From contig JAJECI010000011.1 of assembly GCA_022822065.1 (NCBI GenBank), positions 186,001 to 250,000 on the forward strand: a DNA stretch of 64,000 nucleotides, given 5' to 3'. The notes under the pieces were generated by a model. That model was not told where the DNA came from and searched no databases. It saw only the letters and a program-made list of their open reading frames with translations. Shown one piece after another: positions 20,574 through 55,344 of the stretch. The DNA is from Candidatus Dadabacteria bacterium. GTDB taxonomy: Bacteria; Desulfobacterota_D; UBA1144; Nemesobacterales; Nemesobacteraceae. Each line of letters begins with the position of its first letter. Position 1 is the first letter of the stretch. Both the position numbers and the translations under genes were made by a program.

Positions 20574-21470
20574 CTAAAGCCCTGCCTGTTTCATAAGGTC
20601 CTTGGCCATAAGAGATCCCTCTGCGGATGCTTTTTCCGCATCGCACTTCCAGGCGCTCCTGAAAATCGCCTTTTTCTCCATATCTACAAAAACAGAATCT
20701 GCCGATATTCTTCCAAGATGCACTTGCGCGCAGCATCCAAGCGGAATTTGACAGTCTCCGCCAAAAGTTTCCAGGAAAGAGCGTTCGAACGTTGCTGCGG
20801 TTTCTGTGTCCGGATGCGTGATTGCGGATATGAGGTTTCTCGTTTCCTTATCATCTTTTCTGCATTCTATGGCGATTATCCCCTGGCATGGGGCCGGAAC
20901 CATATGATCCTGCGAGAGATGCTGGGTAATACGTTCCGAAAGCCCGAGCCGGTTGAGCCCCGCTGCGGCCAGGACGATTCCGTCAAGATCTTCTGAGAAA
21001 ATTTTCCTTAGTCTTGTATCAACATTTCCCCTTATGGGAACAACTTCCAGTTCGGGGAACCAGAAAAGCAGTTGAGCTTTTCTTCTTATGCTTCCGGTCC
21101 CCACCCTTCCCTCTCCTTGGAGCTGTTCAAGGGTGCGGCCGTCTGCTGAGACAAAAACATCTCTCGGGTCTTCTCTTTTGAGTACGGAACCTATGACGAG
21201 CCCGTCTGGAAGAACCGAAGGCATGTCCTTCATGCTGTGAACGGCAATATCTATCTCGTCCGAGAGAAGGCTCTGCTCTATTTCTTTTACGAAAACTCCC
21301 TTGCCACCCATCCGGGAGATGTCTTCTTTGGGGTTTATATCACCCAAAGTTTTTATTTCCTTTATTTCCGTTTTAAGTGAAGGGAATGCAGTGCGAAGTT
21401 CCGTTTCGACTAGGCGGGCCTGGAACAGGGCGAGTCTGCTACCTCTGGTCCCAATTCTCAGCTTCGTCAT
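20574..21470 (-). CDS. hemC: Porphobilinogen deaminase (hydroxymethylbilane synthase)
   Basis: 298 residues. Polymerises four porphobilinogens into hydroxymethylbilane in haem and B12 synthesis. Visible motifs are IGTRGSRLALFQ at the N-terminus, VHSMKDMPS, and the dipyrromethane-cofactor cysteine Cys240 in GGDCQIPLG. Its ATG lies 32 bp inside the hemA 3' end, so translation is coupled. It is the last gene of the nuoM-to-hemC operon. Confidence 0.96.
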   Translation of the reverse strand: MTKLRIGTRGSRLALFQARLVETELRTAFPSLKTEIKEIKTLGDINPKEDISRMGGKGVFVKEIEQSLLSDEIDIAVHSMKDMPSVLPDGLVIGSVLKREDPRDVFVSADGRTLEQLQGEGRVGTGSIRRKAQLLFWFPELEVVPIRGNVDTRLRKIFSEDLDGIVLAAAGLNRLGLSERITQHLSQDHMVPAPCQGIIAIECRKDDKETRNLISAITHPDTETAATFERSFLETFGGDCQIPLGCCAQVHLGRISADSVFVDMEKKAIFRSAWKCDAEKASAEGSLMAKDLMKQAGL

Positions 21471-22767
21471 AAATATCTTTTACGTCCTGCGAGGCATCCG
21501 CTGGGTCAAGCTCAAAAAGCCTTCTCGTTACCTCAGAGTAGAGAGCCGCTTCGTAGCCGGACGTTCTTTTCTTTAGGTTAGTAACAGGGTCGTGAAATAT
21601 TTTTCCGATTATGGAATTCGCCAGATTCTCTATAATCTCTTTTTGCGTTCCAGTGCCACCCTCGAGTCTTCGGAGCGCCTTCTCGACCTCGGTCTTTTTT
21701 ATCTTCTCGAATTTTTGCTTGATATCAATTATGACAGGGAAGACTTTAAGGCTTTCCATCCAGTCGTTAAAACCTTTTTCTACGGTCAGGACTATTTCTT
21801 CGGCTTTTTTGAGATTTTCCTTTCTGGAATTTAGGTTTTCGCCCTGAACCACTCTCAGGTCGTCTATGTCGTAGAGATAAACTCCGGGAATTCTGTTTAT
21901 TTTCGGGTCTATATCGCGTGGGACAGCTATATCGATCATGAAAATCGGATCGTTCTTCCTGAGCTTAAGAGATTGTTTTACATGTTCGCTTCTTATTATG
22001 TAGTCAGAAGACCCGGTTGCGGTCACAAGAATGTCGATGTCTTTCAGATGGTAGAGCATTTCCTCGAACCTGATGGGTTTACCCTTCAGGGATTGGGAAA
22101 GTTTTTCCGCGTTACTGAAATCCCTGCTCGTTACGTAGAGTTCCTTTATGTTGTTCGAGACCAGGTGCTTGGCGAAAAGCTCCCCCATTTCCCCGGTTCC
22201 AACCAGCATTACGGTCCGATTTGCGAGGTTCTCGAAGATCCTTTTGGCAAGCTCCACTCCGAGATAGCTTATCGATACCGCCTGAGAGGAGATTCCCGTT
22301 TCTGCTCTCACCTTCTTTCCGGCGAAAAAAGCCCTGTTAAAAAGCCTGTTGAGTATGAGCCCGACAGTGTTCTCGGAACGCGCCAGGCTATAGGAATTTT
22401 TGAGCTGGTTCAGAATCTGGGTTTCTCCGATTACCATGGAATCGATGCTTGAGGCTACTCTGAAAAGATGCCTTACAGCGTCGGGTCCCACGCGGGTGTG
22501 CATATAGGAATGAAGATTTCCGCCGGGAAGCTTATGAAAATCCAGAAGAAAGGATTTGATTTCCTCTTCGCATTTTCCACGATGCTCAGTTGCCGCGTAT
22601 ATCTCAACCCGGTTACATGTGGACACGATACAGCATTCAAGTACGTTTTCCCTCAAGCGAAGTATTCCAAGCGCTTTTCGAAGGTCCGTATCGGAAAAAG
22701 AAAACCGCTCCCGCACTTCCACCGGGGCCGTCTTGTAGCTGATTCCAACTGAAACTATTTCTATCAT
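21439..22767 (-). CDS. hemA: Glutamyl-tRNA reductase
   Basis: 442 residues, first step of the C5 route to 5-aminolevulinate. It has catalytic Cys51 in STCNRVEIYA, the GETQILNQLK motif and an NADPH-binding VGTGEMGELFAKHL. The C-terminal dimerisation helices are complete. It is followed by hemC, overlapping, and preceded by the SDR gene with a 29-bp gap. hemB and hemL are not in the window. Confidence 0.96.
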   Translation of the reverse strand: MIEIVSVGISYKTAPVEVRERFSFSDTDLRKALGILRLRENVLECCIVSTCNRVEIYAATEHRGKCEEEIKSFLLDFHKLPGGNLHSYMHTRVGPDAVRHLFRVASSIDSMVIGETQILNQLKNSYSLARSENTVGLILNRLFNRAFFAGKKVRAETGISSQAVSISYLGVELAKRIFENLANRTVMLVGTGEMGELFAKHLVSNNIKELYVTSRDFSNAEKLSQSLKGKPIRFEEMLYHLKDIDILVTATGSSDYIIRSEHVKQSLKLRKNDPIFMIDIAVPRDIDPKINRIPGVYLYDIDDLRVVQGENLNSRKENLKKAEEIVLTVEKGFNDWMESLKVFPVIIDIKQKFEKIKKTEVEKALRRLEGGTGTQKEIIENLANSIIGKIFHDPVTNLKKRTSGYEAALYSEVTRRLFELDPADASQDVKDIYDEAENWDQR

Positions 22768-22796: not shown

Positions 22797-23501
22797 TTAT
22801 AAACTACCCGTGGATGGAACTATATCAATTTCATCTATGTTCGCTCCCGGGGGCTGATTTATGACCGACAGGACCGTCTTCGCCGTAACTTCAGGAGACA
22901 TCATCTTTGTCCTGTCCCATTTTCCGCCGAGAGAATCCCAGACATCCGTTTTGGTCGGACCCGGCAGGACAGCGGATACTTTTATTCCCCTGTCTCTTAA
23001 CTCTTCTCTAAGCGAGTTGGTAAAACCCAGAACGGCGAACTTCGAAGCGCAGTAGGCCGCCCACCCGGGAAAGCCCTTTTTTGAAGCATTTGAGCCGATG
23101 TTTACTATATGGCCTCCTCCGGGCATAAGCGGAAGCGAATGCTTTACCATGAGAAAAGCCCCTCTCGCGTTTACGGCCATCATTTCATCCCACTGCTCGG
23201 TGTCGGTTTTTTCTACCGGACCCGTGTAAACGACGCCCGCGTTATTGATCAGCACGTCAATCCTTCCCTTTTTTTCCGCAACGCTCGAGATGAATCTTTC
23301 GATTTCCTCCTCAATCGATATGTCAACGGAAGAGATCATAAAGTTTCCGGCAAACGACGACATTTCAGCCTCAAGGGAAGCTGCGCTCTCCTGGCTTTTT
23401 GAACAAAGTGCCGTAAAAAACCCCGCCCCAAGCAATTCAACTGCGGTCGCTCTTCCTATGCCTCTTGCCGCACCGGTCACTATCGCGATTTTCTCAGCCA
23501 T
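22797..23501 (-). CDS. SDR-family reductase, candidate pterin reductase
   Basis: 234 residues. A classical SDR with TGAARGIG, NNAG, catalytic Ser and YCASK, so it should be an active NAD(P)H-dependent oxidoreductase. The ATG at 23501 has GAGGAA upstream and overlaps the PTPS-like gene by 8 bp; a TTG at 23525 is rejected. Coupling to two PTPS paralogues suggests it may reduce pyruvoyl-tetrahydropterin, as sepiapterin reductase does. That role is inference; the sequence alone only says SDR. Confidence 0.85.
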   Translation of the reverse strand: MAEKIAIVTGAARGIGRATAVELLGAGFFTALCSKSQESAASLEAEMSSFAGNFMISSVDISIEEEIERFISSVAEKKGRIDVLINNAGVVYTGPVEKTDTEQWDEMMAVNARGAFLMVKHSLPLMPGGGHIVNIGSNASKKGFPGWAAYCASKFAVLGFTNSLREELRDRGIKVSAVLPGPTKTDVWDSLGGKWDRTKMMSPEVTAKTVLSVINQPPGANIDEIDIVPSTGSL

Positions 23502-23925
23502 CCTGTTTTTCCTCGAAATACTCAAAATAACTTTTCGGGTTTTCCCAAATCTTTATACGATCAAGCTTGCCGGAGGTGATCTCCGTGAATTTCTGCCACA
23601 GGTATTTCCCTATATTTTCAACAGTCGATACGTTTTCCTGAAAGAAATGAATATCCCTGTCTATCCATTTATAGTTAAGTCCTTCGATTATGGGGACGGC
23701 CCGTTTCTCGAAATCGATACGGTTTATCACCATACCCGTTTCATCGTCTATCTCCCCTCTTATTGCCACTTCCACCGTGTAGTCGTGTCCGTGCCCCGCG
23801 GGATTTGCGCATTTGTCGAATATGGCGAAGTTCTCTTCGTCAGATAATCCTTCCATAAAAAGCCTGTGGCTTGCGGAAAACCTGAATACTCTAGTAAGAA
23901 GTACCTGCTCTTTTCTCTCTAGCAT
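23494..23925 (-). CDS. PTPS/QueD-like protein A: catalytic Cys kept, Asp-His lost
   Basis: 143-residue 6-pyruvoyl-tetrahydropterin-synthase fold. Zinc ligands are His20 (FSASHR), His45 and His47 (GHGH). Cys39 in KCANPAGHGH matches the catalytic Cys of animal PTPS (KCNNPNGHGH). At the position of the catalytic Asp-His (LDHKNL in the family) it has Asn84-Tyr85 (LNYKW). The substrate Glu near the C-terminus (WEN) remains. Its ATG overlaps the stop of its neighbour paralogue by 7 bp. Alone it should be crippled; see the findings. Confidence 0.9.
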   Translation of the reverse strand: MLERKEQVLLTRVFRFSASHRLFMEGLSDEENFAIFDKCANPAGHGHDYTVEVAIRGEIDDETGMVINRIDFEKRAVPIIEGLNYKWIDRDIHFFQENVSTVENIGKYLWQKFTEITSGKLDRIKIWENPKSYFEYFEEKQDG

Positions 23926-24341
23926 TTGCTGTAGTCGACGAAAAGATCGTCTGTTTCATACACCCTTATCTTGTAAAGGCGACAATCATCCCTTTCAATG
24001 ATTTTTTCTTCGATTACTTCCCACAGGACCTTGGCTATGTTCTCCGTCGTCGGTATAAGATCCTCGAAACGGGGGTTGTCCTCGTTTAGGTTCTTGTGGT
24101 CGAAATCAGCCAGAACCGATGAAACGATCTGCTTCAGGTCAAAGAGATTGATTATCATGCCCGTCTCCGGGTTTATTTCTCCTTCCACGGTAACTTCAAG
24201 CATGAAGTTGTGCCCGTGTCCGCCGGGCAGACTCGATTTACCGTAGAATTCGAGGTTTTTCTCCTCACTCCAGTCTTTGTTCCAGTACCTGTGAGAAGCG
24301 GAGAACTCGACTTTCTTCGTTATGAGCTTTTTAAAAGACAT
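23919..24341 (-). CDS. PTPS/QueD-like protein B: Asp-His kept, catalytic Cys replaced by Ser
   Basis: 140 residues, same fold as the downstream paralogue. Zinc ligands His17, His42 and His44 are present, and the catalytic Asp81-His82 (FDHKNLN) and the substrate-binding Glu in VYETDD are intact. The catalytic cysteine position holds Ser36 (KSSLPGGHGH). It is closer overall to animal-type PTPS than to E. coli QueD, having five residues between the Cys/Ser site and HGH rather than three. It follows nuoM by 49 bp and overlaps the A paralogue. Confidence 0.9.
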   Translation of the reverse strand: MSFKKLITKKVEFSASHRYWNKDWSEEKNLEFYGKSSLPGGHGHNFMLEVTVEGEINPETGMIINLFDLKQIVSSVLADFDHKNLNEDNPRFEDLIPTTENIAKVLWEVIEEKIIERDDCRLYKIRVYETDDLFVDYSKC

Positions 24342-24390: not shown

Positions 24391-25950
24391 CTAAGGCCTG
24401 TTTTTCTGAATCTCCGGAACTGTAGAGTCCGCGCGGAAAGCTTCTTGCTGCGCTTCGTCTACCATTCTTGTTATCGTGGGCTCCATTTTTGAGAGAAAGG
24501 GTTGCGGGTAGATTCCCATAAGAAATATCATAATGGCAAGAGGGATCATAAGGGCTATCTCTCTGGGATTAAGATCCTTAAGCCCCGTGTTTATTTTCTT
24601 TACCACAGGTCCGAACATCACCCTCTGGTATGCCCAGAGCATGTAGACGGCTCCGAGTACGAGCCCTGTGGCTCCAAGTGCCGCATACAGGTAACTCTCA
24701 GCGAACACTCCAAGGAGAATCAGAAATTCCCCTATGAAACCGTTTAAAAGAGGAAGGCCTATCGAAGAGAGCATGGCAATCATGAAAAACAGAGCGTAAA
24801 TCGGCATTATCTTAGCGAGTCCACCAAATTCCGAAATCATTTTGGTGTGACGTCTTTCGTATATCATCCCCACGAGAATAAACAGGGCCCCGGTTGAGAG
24901 ACCGTGACCTATCATCTGGTAGACCCCGCCCTGTACGCCGTGGAGATTGAAGATGAAAACGCCCAGCATTATAAGCCCCATGTGACTTACGCTCGAGTAG
25001 GCGACCAGTTTCTTGAGATCCGTCTGCATGAATGCCACCATCGCTCCATAGATTATCCCGATGATGGAAAGAGCTATGAGAACCCCTGTGTATGCCTCTA
25101 TCGCCTCCGGGAAAAACGGAATAAGAAATCTTATCACCGCGTAGGTTCCCATCTTAAGCAGTACGCCGGCAAGTATTACGCTCCCGGGCGTGGGAGCTTC
25201 AACGTGCGCGTCGGGAAGCCAGGTATGGAACGGAAACATCGGAACTTTGATTGCGAAAGCCAGGAAAAACGCCAGAAACACAAGTCCTTGGGGACTCAGT
25301 ATCCCGTCAAAAGCAAGACTGGTTTTTTGGAGGTCAAAAAGGTTCATTGACGCGAAGCCGAACTGGTCTATGTGGGCGTAGTACATATAGATGATCGCGA
25401 CCAGCATAAGCCCGCTTCCAAGTGCCGTGTAGATAAAGAACTTTATTGCCGCGTAGATTCTTCTTGCGGATCCCCAGATTCCTATGATGAAATACATGGG
25501 AATCAGTACCGCTTCCCAGAATATAAAGAAAAGAATCATGTCCAGCGCGGCGAAGGTCCCAATGAGCGCCGATTCAAGAAAAAGAGTAAGGCAAAGAAAC
25601 GCTCTCCATCCGCCTCTTATCGCGTTCCAGGAGCAAAGAACCGTAATCGGAAAAAGAAAAGTGGTGAGAAGCACAAGCAAAAGGCTAAGACCGTCGACCC
25701 CCAGATGATAAGAAACCCCAAGGTCCGTAAGCCAGGGAATCTTCTCTTCAAACTGCATTGTGGAAAGCGAGCCGTTGAAGCGGAAAAAAAGCGGAAGGGA
25801 TATCAGGAATTCCACCAAGGTTATTACGAATGCAACCGCTTTTAACTGATAATCGGAAACCTTCTCGAAATACGGCAGAACCGCGAGCACCACGGCTCCC
25901 AGAAGAGGAAAAAATATGAGCAGGGACAGAATGTTATTATCGAGACTCAC
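24391..25950 (-). CDS. nuoM: NADH-quinone oxidoreductase subunit M (proton-pumping)
   Basis: 519 residues with about 14 membrane segments. The antiporter-like key residues are Glu146 (FFIFWEAVLIP) and Lys235 (AIKVPMFPFHTWLPDAH), matching Glu144 and Lys234 of E. coli NuoM. It begins with GTG. No nuoL, nuoN or other complex I gene is adjacent: pterin and haem genes follow it and a 205-bp gap with its own promoter precedes it. It could be a separated complex I subunit or a second copy. Confidence 0.93.
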   Translation of the reverse strand: MSLDNNILSLLIFFPLLGAVVLAVLPYFEKVSDYQLKAVAFVITLVEFLISLPLFFRFNGSLSTMQFEEKIPWLTDLGVSYHLGVDGLSLLLVLLTTFLFPITVLCSWNAIRGGWRAFLCLTLFLESALIGTFAALDMILFFIFWEAVLIPMYFIIGIWGSARRIYAAIKFFIYTALGSGLMLVAIIYMYYAHIDQFGFASMNLFDLQKTSLAFDGILSPQGLVFLAFFLAFAIKVPMFPFHTWLPDAHVEAPTPGSVILAGVLLKMGTYAVIRFLIPFFPEAIEAYTGVLIALSIIGIIYGAMVAFMQTDLKKLVAYSSVSHMGLIMLGVFIFNLHGVQGGVYQMIGHGLSTGALFILVGMIYERRHTKMISEFGGLAKIMPIYALFFMIAMLSSIGLPLLNGFIGEFLILLGVFAESYLYAALGATGLVLGAVYMLWAYQRVMFGPVVKKINTGLKDLNPREIALMIPLAIMIFLMGIYPQPFLSKMEPTITRMVDEAQQEAFRADSTVPEIQKNRP

Positions 25951-48072: not shown

Positions 48073-48860
48073 TTTGATTCGTGAGCGTCAGCATCACCTG
48101 TTCCCTTGAAAGCGAAGGTAAGAAATCCTGTGTGTGCCACGGTCCTGTTATCCGGGCGGGTTTTCCCCTTTTTCACCTGATAGTTCCTCATTATAAGCTC
48201 CACCGTTTCGATTCTCACAAAACCCGTTTCCTCAAGCGATTCCGCGGTTCTTTCCACCTGGTTGTATGTTGGGGAGATGCTTGCGATTCTCCCTCCGGAA
48301 GCAAGGGCCTCGTAAGCCGCCGGAATTCCATACCATGGAGAAGGAAGATCAAGTATAGCGACGTCAACTTCCCTTTCCCTAAAACCTTCTCTGGCGTCGC
48401 CGCAGTTAAATTCCACGTATTCAGAAAGTCCCGCCCGTCGTACGTTATCTTTGGCGTTATTCATGAACTGCTCTCTTTTCTCGTACGTGTAGACTTTTCC
48501 GGAGGGGGCCACCGAATTCGCAAGCGCAATGGTAAGAGCTCCAGAACCGGTAGCGGCTTCGACAACCCTGGTTCCCGCCCTCACGTCCGTTTTAAAGAGA
48601 ATCAGGGCCGCGTCCTTGGGATAAACGATCTGGGTAGCCCTTCTCACCTTCATGATCTTTTGTTCCACGGTAGGGTTAAGAAGCACAAAATCGTTTCCAA
48701 GGCTTGAAACTATCGTTTCTCCCCATTTTTTCCCCAGAGCGGAGGAGAGGTCGAGTATTCCCATGTGAGAACTGAACGACTTGCCCTCTTCTACCACCAC
48801 CATAAAGCTTTTGTTGTCAGGTGAAACGAGGAGAACGGTATCACCGGGTTTTATTTTCAT
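48069..48860 (-). CDS. trmI: tRNA (adenine-N1-)-methyltransferase TrmI-like
   Basis: 263 residues. N-terminal beta region then SAM domain VVEAATGSGALTIALANSV, VDVAILDLPSPW and SPTYNQVERT. Family members methylate A58 (and sometimes A57) in the T-loop. Overlaps the upstream MFS gene by 4 bp. Confidence 0.9.
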   Translation of the reverse strand: MKIKPGDTVLLVSPDNKSFMVVVEEGKSFSSHMGILDLSSALGKKWGETIVSSLGNDFVLLNPTVEQKIMKVRRATQIVYPKDAALILFKTDVRAGTRVVEAATGSGALTIALANSVAPSGKVYTYEKREQFMNNAKDNVRRAGLSEYVEFNCGDAREGFREREVDVAILDLPSPWYGIPAAYEALASGGRIASISPTYNQVERTAESLEETGFVRIETVELIMRNYQVKKGKTRPDNRTVAHTGFLTFAFKGTGDADAHESK

Positions 48861-50023
48861 GAAAGACGGTTCACCCTCCCTGCGCTTATAAAATATTTAT
48901 AGGTAAAGATAATGCACCCCGCAAACATGAATATTCCCGTTGCCGAATACATGTTCGAAAAACCGTAATCGCGCGCTATGATTCCAAGAGCGAAAGCGAA
49001 AAAATTTATCCCGATGCTAAATGACATGTTAAACGCGCCCATCGCCGTTCCCCTCTCATCATCTAGCGCCCTGTCGATAATCATCGCGCTTATGGTGGGG
49101 TAGAGAATTCCGTAACCCAGGCTGAAGACGAAAGAAACCAGAACAGCGCTCAAAGTGGAGTTTATGGAAAAAATCATGAGCAGCGAAAATATCATGATAA
49201 GCATTGAAGGCAGGGCTATCTTTCTTCTCTCAACAATATCCGGAAGCTTCCCGCCCAGGACCCTGATCAATATGACGGTTACGGAATATGTAAGAAAAAA
49301 GCTCCACGCATGAATTCCGTTTCCCTCGAGAAAAACGGAGAAGAAATTAAGCATGCTTCCAAGCCCCACTGCAATTATAAGATTGGTCAGCAGAAGCACG
49401 CGGAACCTCGGAGAGAAGACAACGTCGAAAAAGCCGCTGAAAATGGATTTTTCGGATACCCTGAAGCTTCCCTCCCGCGAGAGAAAACAGAGAATAAAGG
49501 CAAGCAGGCTGAAAAAAGAGGTATAAAGAAAGAAGACCGAATAACTGAATCTTTCTATCATAAATTCTCCAATGGTAGGTCCAATCGAGTAGGAAGCTAT
49601 GGTGAAGGCACCGAAAATGCCGAGTCCGTAAGCCCTTATTTCACTGGGAACATAGTCTGAAACCGCCGTGGCGGCCGAGGTGAAGAAAAAAGCGAAAGCT
49701 ATTCCCTGCATGAGTCTCAGGAGGAATATTTTCACGTCAATATCCGATATAAAAATATAGAGAAGGGAAACCAAAAACATCAGAGAAGAACCCGCAAGCA
49801 TGAATCTTCTTCGCCCGTAGTGGTCTATCAGAAAAGCTACGAAGGGGATGGCTCCTATTGAAGTTATACCGAAGGTTCCCATTACATACCCTATGCGAGC
49901 CTCGTCACCCCCGATATCCCTTACGAAAAGAGGAAGCAGGAAAAAAGAGGAAAAATTGCAGAAGAAGAAAAAGTTTCCCAGGGTGACCAGGGAAAAATCT
50001 CTGTACTTTTGTGCAAAAGGCAT
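48857..50023 (-). CDS. Major facilitator superfamily transporter, copy 1
   Basis: 388 residues with 12 membrane segments. Motif A-type loop after TM2 (FLIDHYGRRRF) and a matching half-motif near KLPDIVERRK. Substrate unknown. It closely matches the MFS gene at 50397-51572 (shared GYVMGxFG, FFTSAATAVS, RRKIALP, ERGTA), so they are paralogues. First gene of the MFS-trmI-rsmG-mtnP-kinase run. Confidence 0.9.
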   Translation of the reverse strand: MPFAQKYRDFSLVTLGNFFFFCNFSSFFLLPLFVRDIGGDEARIGYVMGTFGITSIGAIPFVAFLIDHYGRRRFMLAGSSLMFLVSLLYIFISDIDVKIFLLRLMQGIAFAFFFTSAATAVSDYVPSEIRAYGLGIFGAFTIASYSIGPTIGEFMIERFSYSVFFLYTSFFSLLAFILCFLSREGSFRVSEKSIFSGFFDVVFSPRFRVLLLTNLIIAVGLGSMLNFFSVFLEGNGIHAWSFFLTYSVTVILIRVLGGKLPDIVERRKIALPSMLIMIFSLLMIFSINSTLSAVLVSFVFSLGYGILYPTISAMIIDRALDDERGTAMGAFNMSFSIGINFFAFALGIIARDYGFSNMYSATGIFMFAGCIIFTYKYFISAGRVNRLS

Positions 50024-50103
50024 ACTAAATGGTGACCTGAAAAAGAAAGTGAAAAAGGGAGTTTACATGATTTTATGCTTTCTATCAGGACAACTATGGC
50101 TTT

Positions 50104-50131
50104 TTGACATGAAAGAGGCCCGTGATATAAT
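50104..50131 (+). promoter_or_regulatory. Consensus sigma-70-type promoter of tRNA-Lys/tRNA-Glu
   Basis: -35 TTGACA (50104-50109), 16-bp spacer, -10 TATAAT (50126-50131), both perfect. The tRNA-Lys 5' end is 12 bp beyond the -10 box. Confidence 0.9.
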
Positions 50132-50143
50132 ACGGCATCTTCT

Positions 50144-50216
50144 GAGCCGTTAGCTCAGCTGGTAGAGCAACTGCCTTTTAAGCAGTGGGTCACAGGTTCG
50201 AATCCTGTACGGCTCA
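50144..50216 (+). tRNA. tRNA-Lys (TTT)
   Basis: 73-nt cloverleaf; acceptor GAGCCGT/ACGGCTC, anticodon loop CTTTTAA giving TTT. The CCA end is not encoded. Confidence 0.95.
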
Positions 50217-50225
50217 ATTCTTGCC

Positions 50226-50303
50226 GTCCCCGTCGTCTAGTCAGGCCTAGGACATCGGCCTTTCACGCCGGTAACAGGGGTTCAAATCCCCTCGGGGACG
50301 CCA
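50226..50303 (+). tRNA. tRNA-Glu (TTC)
   Basis: 78 nt with encoded CCA; acceptor GTCCCCG/CGGGGAC, anticodon loop CTTTCAC giving TTC. It lies 9 bp after tRNA-Lys and is probably co-transcribed. Confidence 0.95.
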
Positions 50304-50396
50304 TAGAGCAATTCCCGGCTTCAATCTTGGAAATCACAATAAAAATTAGGAAGTTAGGGCTGGTTATTCAAGCACTTTCTAAATTGCATATTCCAC

Positions 50397-51572
50397 TTAT
50401 TCTAATGCTGGTTGCTCACCCATGATTGCAGTTATATAGTATTTATAAGCAAAAATAACGCACCCGGCGACCAAGAACAGCGCGGTTGACAGATACATGC
50501 TGAAAAAGCCGTAATCGCGCACTATCAGCCCAAGAACGATAGCCGAAGAGTTTATCCCCGTTCCGTAGGACATATTAAATATGCCCACGGCGGTCCCTCT
50601 CTCGCCGGCGCGCGCCCTGTCAATAACCATGGTATTTATCGTGGGGTAAGCAAATCCGTAGCCTATGCTGAAAACTAAAGAAAACAGTACCAGTTGTGAA
50701 TAGGAACTCACGAAAAAAGCTAGCGGCATTGAGAGAACCAGGAGAAAAAGTGCAGGCAAGGCTATTTTTCTTCTTTCTATAACATCTGACACCTTCCCCG
50801 AAGAAAGCCTGATTAATACCGCCACAACGGCAAAAATAACAAAGAAAGTCCCGATGTGAAAACCATGTCTCTCCAGATGAACATGGAAGAAATGAACCAG
50901 AGCCCCTAAACTAACGGCAATCATCAGATTCATCAGGAAAAGCACTCTGAACCTTTCAGAAAAAAGAATGGTGAAGAATCCTTGGAAAATAGGGCCTGTG
51001 GATTCGCCTCGATTTGTCTCTTTCGAGAAAAAGCAAAGCAGAAATGCAATTACCTGATAGCTTGAAGCGTAGATAAAAAAGGCGTGGTAGCCGAGCTCTT
51101 CAATTAGAATTTCTCCGAAAAAAGGTCCAATGGCGAAGCACGCTATGGTGGTAATACCGAAAGTGGTTAGGCAGGAATGCCTTATCTCTCTAGGAACAGT
51201 GTAGGAAACCGCCGTAGCCGCGGAAGTAAAGAAAAGACCGAAAGCGACACCCTGCAGGAGCCTCAAGATATATATTCCCAGGCCAATATCTACTATAAAC
51301 AGGTGCAGAATAGAGGATAAAAACATCAGGAGTGAACCAAGAAGCATGAAGATCCTCTGCCCGTAGCGGTCTATAAGAAAACCAGAAATCAGAGCGGTGC
51401 CGACTGAGGCGACTCCAAAAATCCCCATGACGTAGCCTATATCGGCTGCATCGCCTCCAAAATCATTTATAAGAAGAGGTAGGAGGAAAAACGAGGTAAA
51501 GCCACACTGAAAGAGAAAATTTCCCAGAGTGATCAAAGAAAAATCTTTGTATTTTCTTATGAACTCCAGCAT
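50397..51572 (-). CDS. Major facilitator superfamily transporter, copy 2
   Basis: 391 residues with 12 membrane segments, clearly paralogous to the copy at 48857-50023 along its whole length. Motif A-type loops FLIDRYGQRIF and KVSDVIERRK. Substrate unknown. It stands alone between the tRNA pair and pckA; 200 bp of spacer upstream shows no other gene. Confidence 0.9.
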   Translation of the reverse strand: MLEFIRKYKDFSLITLGNFLFQCGFTSFFLLPLLINDFGGDAADIGYVMGIFGVASVGTALISGFLIDRYGQRIFMLLGSLLMFLSSILHLFIVDIGLGIYILRLLQGVAFGLFFTSAATAVSYTVPREIRHSCLTTFGITTIACFAIGPFFGEILIEELGYHAFFIYASSYQVIAFLLCFFSKETNRGESTGPIFQGFFTILFSERFRVLFLMNLMIAVSLGALVHFFHVHLERHGFHIGTFFVIFAVVAVLIRLSSGKVSDVIERRKIALPALFLLVLSMPLAFFVSSYSQLVLFSLVFSIGYGFAYPTINTMVIDRARAGERGTAVGIFNMSYGTGINSSAIVLGLIVRDYGFFSMYLSTALFLVAGCVIFAYKYYITAIMGEQPALE

Positions 51573-53531: not shown

Positions 53532-54461
53532 TTATATCTTTGCGTTAACTTCCGATATCCACTTCGTTATGGCATCTATCGAGGCTTTGGGATTCTCCAC
53601 GCAGTCGTGTTTCGCTCCCGGTATATAGCGCAGCGTGACATCTTCGTTGCCCGACTGATTCATTATCTTCTTAAGTTCCTTGGGTTCCCACACATCGACG
53701 ATGTCGTCGTTTTCTCCGTGGATAAAGAGAACGGGAACCTTCACATCTTCTATAATTTCACAGGTTTTCGCATAGTAGGCCTGGGGTCCTCTCATATACC
53801 ACCAAGTCCTGTAAGTAAACATCTCCCCGTCAACCGGGTTAAAAGAATCCCCCCAAGCCCTGTAGACGATAAATATCCGGTCGTTTTTCTTTTTCTCCGG
53901 ATTCGGACCCAGAACTTCTCTGGCTTTCAGGTAAATATCCTCATAGGATGGAATACTCCTGTTTTTCTCAAGTCTTCTCTGCTGCGAATATGGCAGGGAA
54001 TAGGAACACCCTTCCAGTATAAGCCCTTTTATCCCGAAAGAATTGGTCTGGGACGCATAGTAGACGGCCATGTTAGCCCCTAGACTGTAGCCCAGCATGA
54101 AGATGTTGCGAAACCCCTCTTTTTGAAGAACATTCACCGATTCCTTCATTTCATGAATCGTATCGGGAAAAATCCCCTCGCCCATTATCTGACCCATAAA
54201 CGCCATACGGGTATTTACAGAGAGCGTGCTTATATTTTTTTCCTTAAGAAGAGGCGGAAGTCTAACGGGGGTTCCCCTTGTGAGGAAGTGTCCCAATACC
54301 CCGTAGAGGTTTATGATTATGGGAGATTCGTAAAGATCTTCTTCCGACGCAAAATCCGGGGTTACGAGAAGAGAATTTACTTCGAATCCATCTTCAGTCT
54401 TGTAAGTAAGGAGATTCTTCTGTTCGTTTATCATCGCAGAATCAGATGAATCTTCTGTCAA
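53532..54461 (-). CDS. Alpha/beta-hydrolase, copy 1
   Basis: 309 residues. Nucleophile elbow GYSLGAN, an acid in HGENDDIVD and the His in GAKHDC. No signal peptide. Paralogous to the gene directly upstream (shared TRMA, PSYDE/SYEDIY, TWW and RGPQA/AGPEA segments). Its start overlaps the upstream paralogue by 20 bp, so they are one operon. Substrate unknown. Confidence 0.85.
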   Translation of the reverse strand: MTEDSSDSAMINEQKNLLTYKTEDGFEVNSLLVTPDFASEEDLYESPIIINLYGVLGHFLTRGTPVRLPPLLKEKNISTLSVNTRMAFMGQIMGEGIFPDTIHEMKESVNVLQKEGFRNIFMLGYSLGANMAVYYASQTNSFGIKGLILEGCSYSLPYSQQRRLEKNRSIPSYEDIYLKAREVLGPNPEKKKNDRIFIVYRAWGDSFNPVDGEMFTYRTWWYMRGPQAYYAKTCEIIEDVKVPVLFIHGENDDIVDVWEPKELKKIMNQSGNEDVTLRYIPGAKHDCVENPKASIDAITKWISEVNAKI

Positions 54462-55344
54462 GCCATCTTATTATAATATCGCCCATTTCCTCTTCTTTTC
54501 CGTCGAGAGTATGACCGGTATTGAGATAATACGCGGAAACGTCGTCATTTCCGTTATCTATGGCTATTTGCGCAAGATTGTGGGTCTCATCGGGCTTTAC
54601 AAACTCATCGTCCCATCCCTGCATGAGAAGAATCGGCAGTTTTATGTTCTTTATCTGCTCATAGCTCTTTACGGCCTGTGCCTCCGGACCGGCGAGAAAC
54701 CACCACGTCTTGTATGTATATATCTCGGTGTGCTCCGGCCGGTAGGAGTTCCCCCTGGCCCTGGAAATAAGGATCGTTCTATCCTGCTTTGAATCATGGG
54801 GATTATCGCCGAGTATCGTCTTCGCCTCCTCGTACACTTCATCGTAGGAAGGCTGGCTTTCCCACTTGTTCCATCTTCTTTTTATCGAGTCCGGGATAGA
54901 ATAAGGAGTAGCGAGGGCGATCACACCCTTTAGCAGTTCCGACTCATCGGAATCCGGTTGGCGGCTTTTTACGGAAAGGTATCTGAGGATCACTCCTCCA
55001 CCCAGGCTGTAACCGGAAACAATGATTTTCTCGTAACCGATTTCTCCCAAATACTTCACTACGCCGTCTATCTGCGGGATAGTGTCGTCCACTATTCCAA
55101 AGCCGAAGAAAAGCCCGAAATTGGCCATCCTGGTATTTATCGCGATAGACGAGTAGCCCGCCTTGGCAAGGATCGGCGGTAAGAATCTCTGGCTTCCGTC
55201 AAGAAAGTTCCCCAAAAACCCGTGAACATGGATAATTATGGTCTTTCTTTTTTCGGAGTCGTTATTAAGCGCTCTGTAGTAGAGGGCGTTAACCTTTCCT
55301 TTCCCGACTGGTACGGAAATCAGTTCCTGCTCTACGTATTTCAT
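54442..55344 (-). CDS. Alpha/beta-hydrolase, copy 2
   Basis: 300 residues. Oxyanion-type HVHGFLGNF, nucleophile elbow GYSLGGG, acid in QGWDDEFV and His in NTGHTLDG. Tandem paralogue of the downstream gene. Upstream gap of 141 bp has no gene. Likely cytoplasmic carboxylesterase or acyl hydrolase; substrate unknown. Confidence 0.85.
   Translation of the reverse strand: MKYVEQELISVPVGKGKVNALYYRALNNDSEKRKTIIIHVHGFLGNFLDGSQRFLPPILAKAGYSSIAINTRMANFGLFFGFGIVDDTIPQIDGVVKYLGEIGYEKIIVSGYSLGGGVILRYLSVKSRQPDSDESELLKGVIALATPYSIPDSIKRRWNKWESQPSYDEVYEEAKTILGDNPHDSKQDRTILISRARGNSYRPEHTEIYTYKTWWFLAGPEAQAVKSYEQIKNIKLPILLMQGWDDEFVKPDETHNLAQIAIDNGNDDVSAYYLNTGHTLDGKEEEMGDIIIRWLDRRFI

Follow-up and report, generated by a model that had tools for sequence, protein, structure and literature searches.

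The window (the whole stretch of DNA that was analysed, 64,000 nucleotides from a Dadabacteria genome) carries on its minus strand two overlapping genes for paralogous proteins of the PTPS family, here called B and A, which are followed by a gene for an SDR oxidoreductase. Listed in the direction of transcription, the features of the locus are:

24391..25950, minus strand: gene resembling that for NADH dehydrogenase subunit M, lying upstream of B; a synteny marker shared with the genomes of family f6 that are missing B, A and the SDR gene
23919..24341, minus strand: B, a PTPS-II paralogue with no catalytic Cys (Ser36 instead), with Asp81-His82, zinc ligands His 17/42/44 and the pterin-anchor Glu129
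23919..23925, minus strand: overlap of the B stop and the A start, 7 nt, as expected for translational coupling
23494..23925, minus strand: A, a PTPS-II paralogue with Cys39 (in CxxxxxHGH), zinc ligands His 20/45/47 and Glu128, in which Asn84-Tyr85 replaces Asp-His
22797..23501, minus strand: SDR oxidoreductase, overlapping the 3' end of A by 8 nt; a candidate pterin reductase
21439..22767, minus strand: hemA (glutamyl-tRNA reductase), the downstream synteny marker

The ATG of A sits within the ..TGC TAG of B. The first-pass annotation of this DNA had reported the two open reading frames, their positions and their active-site residues, and alignment to rat PTPS shows these readings to be correct; the strand, which it left unstated, is the minus one. 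Two further pairs of neighbouring paralogues are present in the window, one of MFS transporters (48857-51572) and one of alpha/beta hydrolases (53532-55344).

In the alignment of A to rat PTPS, Cys39 corresponds to C42, Asn84-Tyr85 to D88-H89, Glu128 to E133 and His 20/45/47 to H23/H48/H50. In B, Ser36 falls at position 42, Asp81-His82 corresponds to D88-H89, Glu129 to E133 and His 17/42/44 again to H23/H48/H50. Neither polypeptide contains the full Cys-Asp-His triad and all three residues are present only in the pair taken together, the two paralogues carrying complementary essential residues, each without those of the other. The PTPS-II signature CxxxxxHGH is found in A (C39-x5-HGH) and is absent in B owing to Ser36, and no replacement Cys or Glu (the PTPS-III-type ExxHGH) occurs near the HGH motif of B.

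Of the proteins with solved structures, human and rat PTPS come closest to the two (9e-36 for B and 1e-31 for A). The AF2 model of A (pLDDT 90, pTM 0.84) has the PTPS fold, with a TM score of about 0.85-0.90 against the human and rat enzymes. The PTPS fold and the three zinc histidines, which had been claimed for both proteins, are borne out by the rat PTPS alignment, the matches to solved structures and the model of A. Both proteins are PTPS-II homologues, with the PF01242/PTPS fold and with solved PTPS as nearest relatives. With the QueD model TIGR03367 they score 44 (A) and 69.5 bits (B) against a cut-off of 89.25, which places neither in QueD. A genome-wide search of the source genome found no PF01242 protein other than A and B.

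Conservation of the pair and loss of catalytic residues

Of 58 Dadabacteria genomes, 49 carry B and A in tandem, and the others are mostly incomplete or fragmented, with the exception of two f6 genomes and of two f8 genomes that show a solo copy only. The combination of Ser and Asp-His in B with Cys and Asn-Tyr in A is identical in 13 genomes of the same genus, those with a scored pair, which rules out a sequencing or assembly error or chance. In families f1 and f7, B contains Ser or Asn and A contains Cys with Asn-Tyr or Asp-Tyr; in f3, B contains Ser or Ala and A contains Cys with Asp-His, Asp-Tyr or Glu-Tyr; in f2, f4, f5 and f8 both Cys and Asp-His are present in both copies. Every readable Dadabacteria pair keeps Asp-His in B and Cys with the three zinc histidines in A (the Cys position of one A has an undetermined base and is not readable), and across f1/f7 there is hardly any variation in the remaining catalytic-site residues that were examined. 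Genus g10 of f3 has lost Cys in B while A retains Asp-His, so that dependence between A and B is not forced there.

The same pairing of Cys without Asp-His and Asp-His without Cys was sought in relatives, a check that the first-pass annotation had proposed, and it was found in the genus itself and in further lineages. The complementary half sites are thus real at this locus, but they do not define the pair: since several families have both triads intact, the complementary state is derived and arose within the class, starting from two complete enzymes. Five f8 genomes (L018, L022, L031, L056, L057) contain an extra solo PTPS-II with the motif CNNxNYHGH and an intact triad, which in L056 and L057 adjoins a glyoxalase-like gene.

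Named genomes from other phyla were scanned with the B alignment, which located the tandem pair in Acidobacteriota, Calditrichota and SAR202 Chloroflexota. As one fused ORF the pair is present in Herpetosiphon, Chloroflexus, Chloroflexales, Nitrospira (including N. defluvii) and a Binatia bacterium. The A-half alignment, run against 387 genomes with retrieval of 40 loci, added fused and tandem cases in further lineages. The linkers in the fused chains are often only 1-8 residues long, and the model of the fused Chloroflexus chain (pLDDT 93, pTM 0.89) has animal PTPS as its best structural matches. A tree of the halves places most A-halves in a single clade (SH-aLRT 88) and the B-halves in a second (82), and neither clade includes the single-copy PTPS-II proteins or rat PTPS; the exception is one fused pair (L213, L231), the A-half of which is placed elsewhere. 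The separation into two clades, moderately supported in the tree, suggests a single old duplication, after which each copy would have spread across phyla together with its partner.

Catalytic residues were scored in 121 non-redundant pairs. Both halves are intact in 63 of them, Asp-His of A alone is altered in 21, and 20 are complementary, with B lacking Cys but having Asp-His and A having Cys but an altered Asp-His. Cys of B alone is lost in five pairs and Asp-His of B alone is altered in two; B is dead and A complete in five, A is dead and B complete in four (the Nitrospira type), and one pair is ambiguous. The reverse complementary split does not occur among the 121, nor does a pair devoid of Cys or of Asp-His altogether. 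Parsimony on a pair tree built without the trait columns gives minima of 7 changes for the Cys of B, 20 for Asp-His of A, 3 for Asp-His of B and 1-2 for the Cys of A (one of these being the ambiguous base). This amounts to 27 lesions in the site made of B-Cys and A-Asp-His versus 4-5 in that made of A-Cys and B-Asp-His (binomial p about 1e-4, the parsimony steps being only roughly independent). For comparison, single-copy PTPS-II is intact in 28 of 28 examined, versus 77 of 242 pair halves with a lesion.

Complementary splits are found in about five or six lineages and always in the one direction, fused chains included: in Dadabacteria f1/f7 and part of f3, in Chloroflexus (fused, Tyr/DH with Cys/HL), in L197/L229 (fused, Ala/DH with Cys/DY or DF), in L212 (fused) and in L199 (tandem). 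An independent-pairs test linking the two losses, which had only 5-7 contrasts, was not significant. If A were a dying pseudoenzyme, it should lose Cys and the zinc ligands along with Asp-His, and the A proteins of Dadabacteria, Acidobacteria and Chloroflexus do not.

Two kinds of fused chain break any universal rule by which A gives Cys and B gives Asp-His. In Nitrospira-type fusions (L137, L109, L115, L126, L089) the second half is without zinc ligands, Cys and Asp-His and the first half is complete; the opposite outcome, a dead first half with a complete second half, is seen in L193, L203, L209, L217 and L220. Some members of the family must therefore use like-with-like sites.

Replacement of His89 by Tyr or Phe has occurred repeatedly, in A of f1/f7, f3, L197 and L212, in the A-halves of L104 and L229 and in the B-halves of L213 and L231. 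Such convergence is not obviously explained by simple relaxed decay, and the acid/base could be modified in these proteins instead of absent.

Pathway and genomic context

The usual operon of Dadabacteria is B-A-folE-SDR; outside the genus studied here the order is mostly B-A-folE, with the SDR gene next in many genomes. The order B-A-folE-SDR is found also in Calditrichota and several Chloroflexota, and B-A-folE in Acidobacteria, the SDR gene coming after the pair or after folE in many Dadabacteria, Calditrichota and Chloroflexota. In the genus of the source genome the operon folE (GTP cyclohydrolase I) is lost, and FolE2, encoded elsewhere in the genome (L239:4498-5334), is apparently its replacement. 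Upstream supply would come from FolE, or from FolE2 in this genus.

QueE and QueC are encoded next to each other in the source genome (L238:3563-4920), which has no QueD besides A/B, and QueC is present in nearly all Dadabacteria. That A and B are the sole PTPS homologues in a genome with QueC and QueE bears on their function and not on membership in QueD. Two f6 genomes of one genus (L242, L243) have the block nuoM-folE-hemA-hemC without B, A and the SDR gene, and are also without QueC and any PTPS. This joint loss counts as one event, but it links B, A and SDR to the deazaguanine route. The product is probably 6-pyruvoyl-tetrahydropterin, with the SDR enzyme acting next, and/or 6-carboxy-tetrahydropterin for QueE/QueC.

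Two other roles were considered and rejected. A folate role (PTPS-III, replacing FolB) is at odds with the missing Glu of the ExxHGH motif, and both FolB and FolK are present in the genome, so that the folate route needs no PTPS. Synthesis of BH4 for an aromatic amino acid hydroxylase would have no known consumer, as the genome encodes no PF00351 protein. FolB adjoins a second FolK and a FolM-like SDR (L240:3264-5088), possibly a separate pterin reductase cluster.

The proposed hetero-oligomer and known systems

The 1994 structure of rat PTPS reportedly has Cys42 and Glu133 on the same monomer and His89 on a monomer that belongs to the opposite trimer. PTPS trimers associate head to head, and the sites are built by three neighbouring monomers (PMC7546909). 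The title of Buergisser et al. 1995, a paper cited in both PMC7546909 and PMC2229834, names an “intersubunit catalytic triad motif”.

A and B are probably paralogous subunits, translated together, of a single hetero-oligomeric enzyme of the PTPS type, to which A would give Cys and B Asp-His and whose substrate would be dihydroneopterin triphosphate. In the simplest arrangement, one A3 and one B3 trimer would be stacked. Productive sites would be made of zinc, Cys39 and Glu128 from A with Asp81-His82 from B, while the reciprocal sites, with zinc and Ser36 of B and Asn84-Tyr85 of A, would be catalytically dead; an A3:B3 assembly would have three sites of each kind. The old duplication would at first have been redundant, with both site types intact, as they still are in other Dadabacteria and many Acidobacteria, and the later decay of one site type would have made each subunit dependent on the other.

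Physical association of A and B is supported by gene fusion, translational overlap and joint loss, which speak for a contact between the chains without proving it. The lesion pattern is consistent with a hetero-oligomer in which the surviving site combines zinc and Cys of A with Asp-His of B; against it, B in Dadabacteria retains all zinc ligands even though its site is predicted to be dead. The first-pass annotation had envisaged an obligate heteromer whose two subunits make good each other's missing half. The heteromer itself gains from the results, as the pair is kept in related genomes, occurs as a fusion in several phyla and is lost jointly, with lesions strongly in one direction; the symmetry does not, for one productive site type (A-Cys with B-Asp-His) and one dead type are predicted instead of two repaired ones. 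Obligate association is likewise putative, and some fusions, such as those of Nitrospira, have instead kept one self-sufficient half.

It is unlikely that A alone is the enzyme, a homohexamer in which Asn/Asp-Tyr does the work of Asp-His alongside Cys39, and that B is its dead structural or regulatory partner. The Cys, zinc ligands and Glu kept in A would suit such an enzyme, as would the convergent change of His89 to Tyr (f1/f7, f3, L197, L212). However, Asp-His is present in every Dadabacteria B and is kept in B in 114 of the 121 non-redundant pairs, a constancy not required of a dead partner, and position 89 of A is elsewhere Phe, Leu, Gln, Ala, Cys, Glu or Arg, the genus studied here having lost the Asp too.

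The probability is also low that A and B are two separate homo-oligomeric enzymes with shifted catalytic residues, for example one with a PTP-like product and one making 6-carboxy-tetrahydropterin for QueE/QueC. If QueE and QueC are functional, the QueD step has to fall to these two proteins, the genome having no other PTPS homologue, and COG0720 subfamilies are known to vary in product and catalytic motif (PMC5041015). Against this stand the lack of a full triad in either chain here and of a replacement Cys or Glu near HGH in B, together with the fusion and joint loss of the genes, which indicate one unit. A degenerating pair, both copies of which have lost catalysis in this genus and are kept for another function or for none, would explain why part of the triad is missing from each copy, but is very improbable in view of the near-invariance of the remaining examined catalytic-site residues across f1/f7, the recurrence of similar states in several lineages, the retention of FolE2, QueC and QueE and the clean deletion of the pair in f6, where two half-intact genes might have been left.

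The preferred reading, that of a hetero-oligomer, can be extended in a speculative and rather doubtful way. A/B may represent a PTPS subfamily that has gone unrecognised, extends across phyla as tandem or fused genes, and has active sites of two kinds. Both would be live in some lineages and perhaps catalyse different steps (e.g. formation of 6-pyruvoyl- and 6-carboxy-tetrahydropterin, feeding the SDR route and QueE/QueC), and one would have decayed in others to leave an irreversible split-site enzyme.

A hetero-oligomer of A and B would be the first heteromeric PTPS known to us; a search of the open-access literature found no description of a heteromeric or fused PTPS. It would also be a naturally replicated example of the passage from a homo-oligomeric enzyme to an obligate heteromer, for which living lineages show intact pairs, one-sided decay, the full complementary split, fusion and dead-half end states. 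The general question of how paralogous subunits become mutually dependent would be testable in one small enzyme. In annotation, A and B may be misread as two QueD or PTPS enzymes, and in most Dadabacteria no other candidate for the QueD step is visible.

Of the known systems, animal PTPS (PTPS-II; rat 1gtq/1b66, human 3i2b) is similar in the zinc histidines, the Glu anchor, CxxxxxHGH in A and about 40-48% identity, and in fold (TM 0.85-0.90 for the model of A, about 0.95 for the fused halves), and the operon of relatives with folE and SDR resembles the BH4 route. In known PTPS, every chain of the homohexamer has the whole triad, which in A/B is split over two paralogues. The subfamily account in the COG0720 review distinguishes PTPS-I to VI by motif, gives CxxxxxHGH as the PTPS-II signature, describes subfamilies that differ in product and catalytic motif, and contains no heteromeric or fused form (PMC5041015). 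QueD (PTPS-I, 6-carboxy-tetrahydropterin synthase; E. coli 4ntk, 3qn0) belongs to the same superfamily, and A/B are the only candidate for its step in the genome, but its motif CxxxHGH is absent in A/B and it is normally one gene and one homohexamer. Urate oxidase and other tandem T-fold proteins share with fused A/B two T-fold domains per chain, the full-length match being weak (TM about 0.44), and differ in their reaction, lack of zinc and low sequence identity.

The yeast heterotrimeric phosphopantothenoylcysteine decarboxylase (PPCDC), unrelated in fold and reaction, is the closest working analogue and not a relative. In yeast PPCDC the site lies at the subunit contact, its His coming from Hal3/Vhs3 and its Cys from Cab3 (PMC4626798). 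As proposed for A and B, the ancestral homo-oligomer of PPCDC had its sites at subunit contacts, the paralogues keep one essential residue each, and only the mixed oligomer works, the other sites being dead (PMC4626798).
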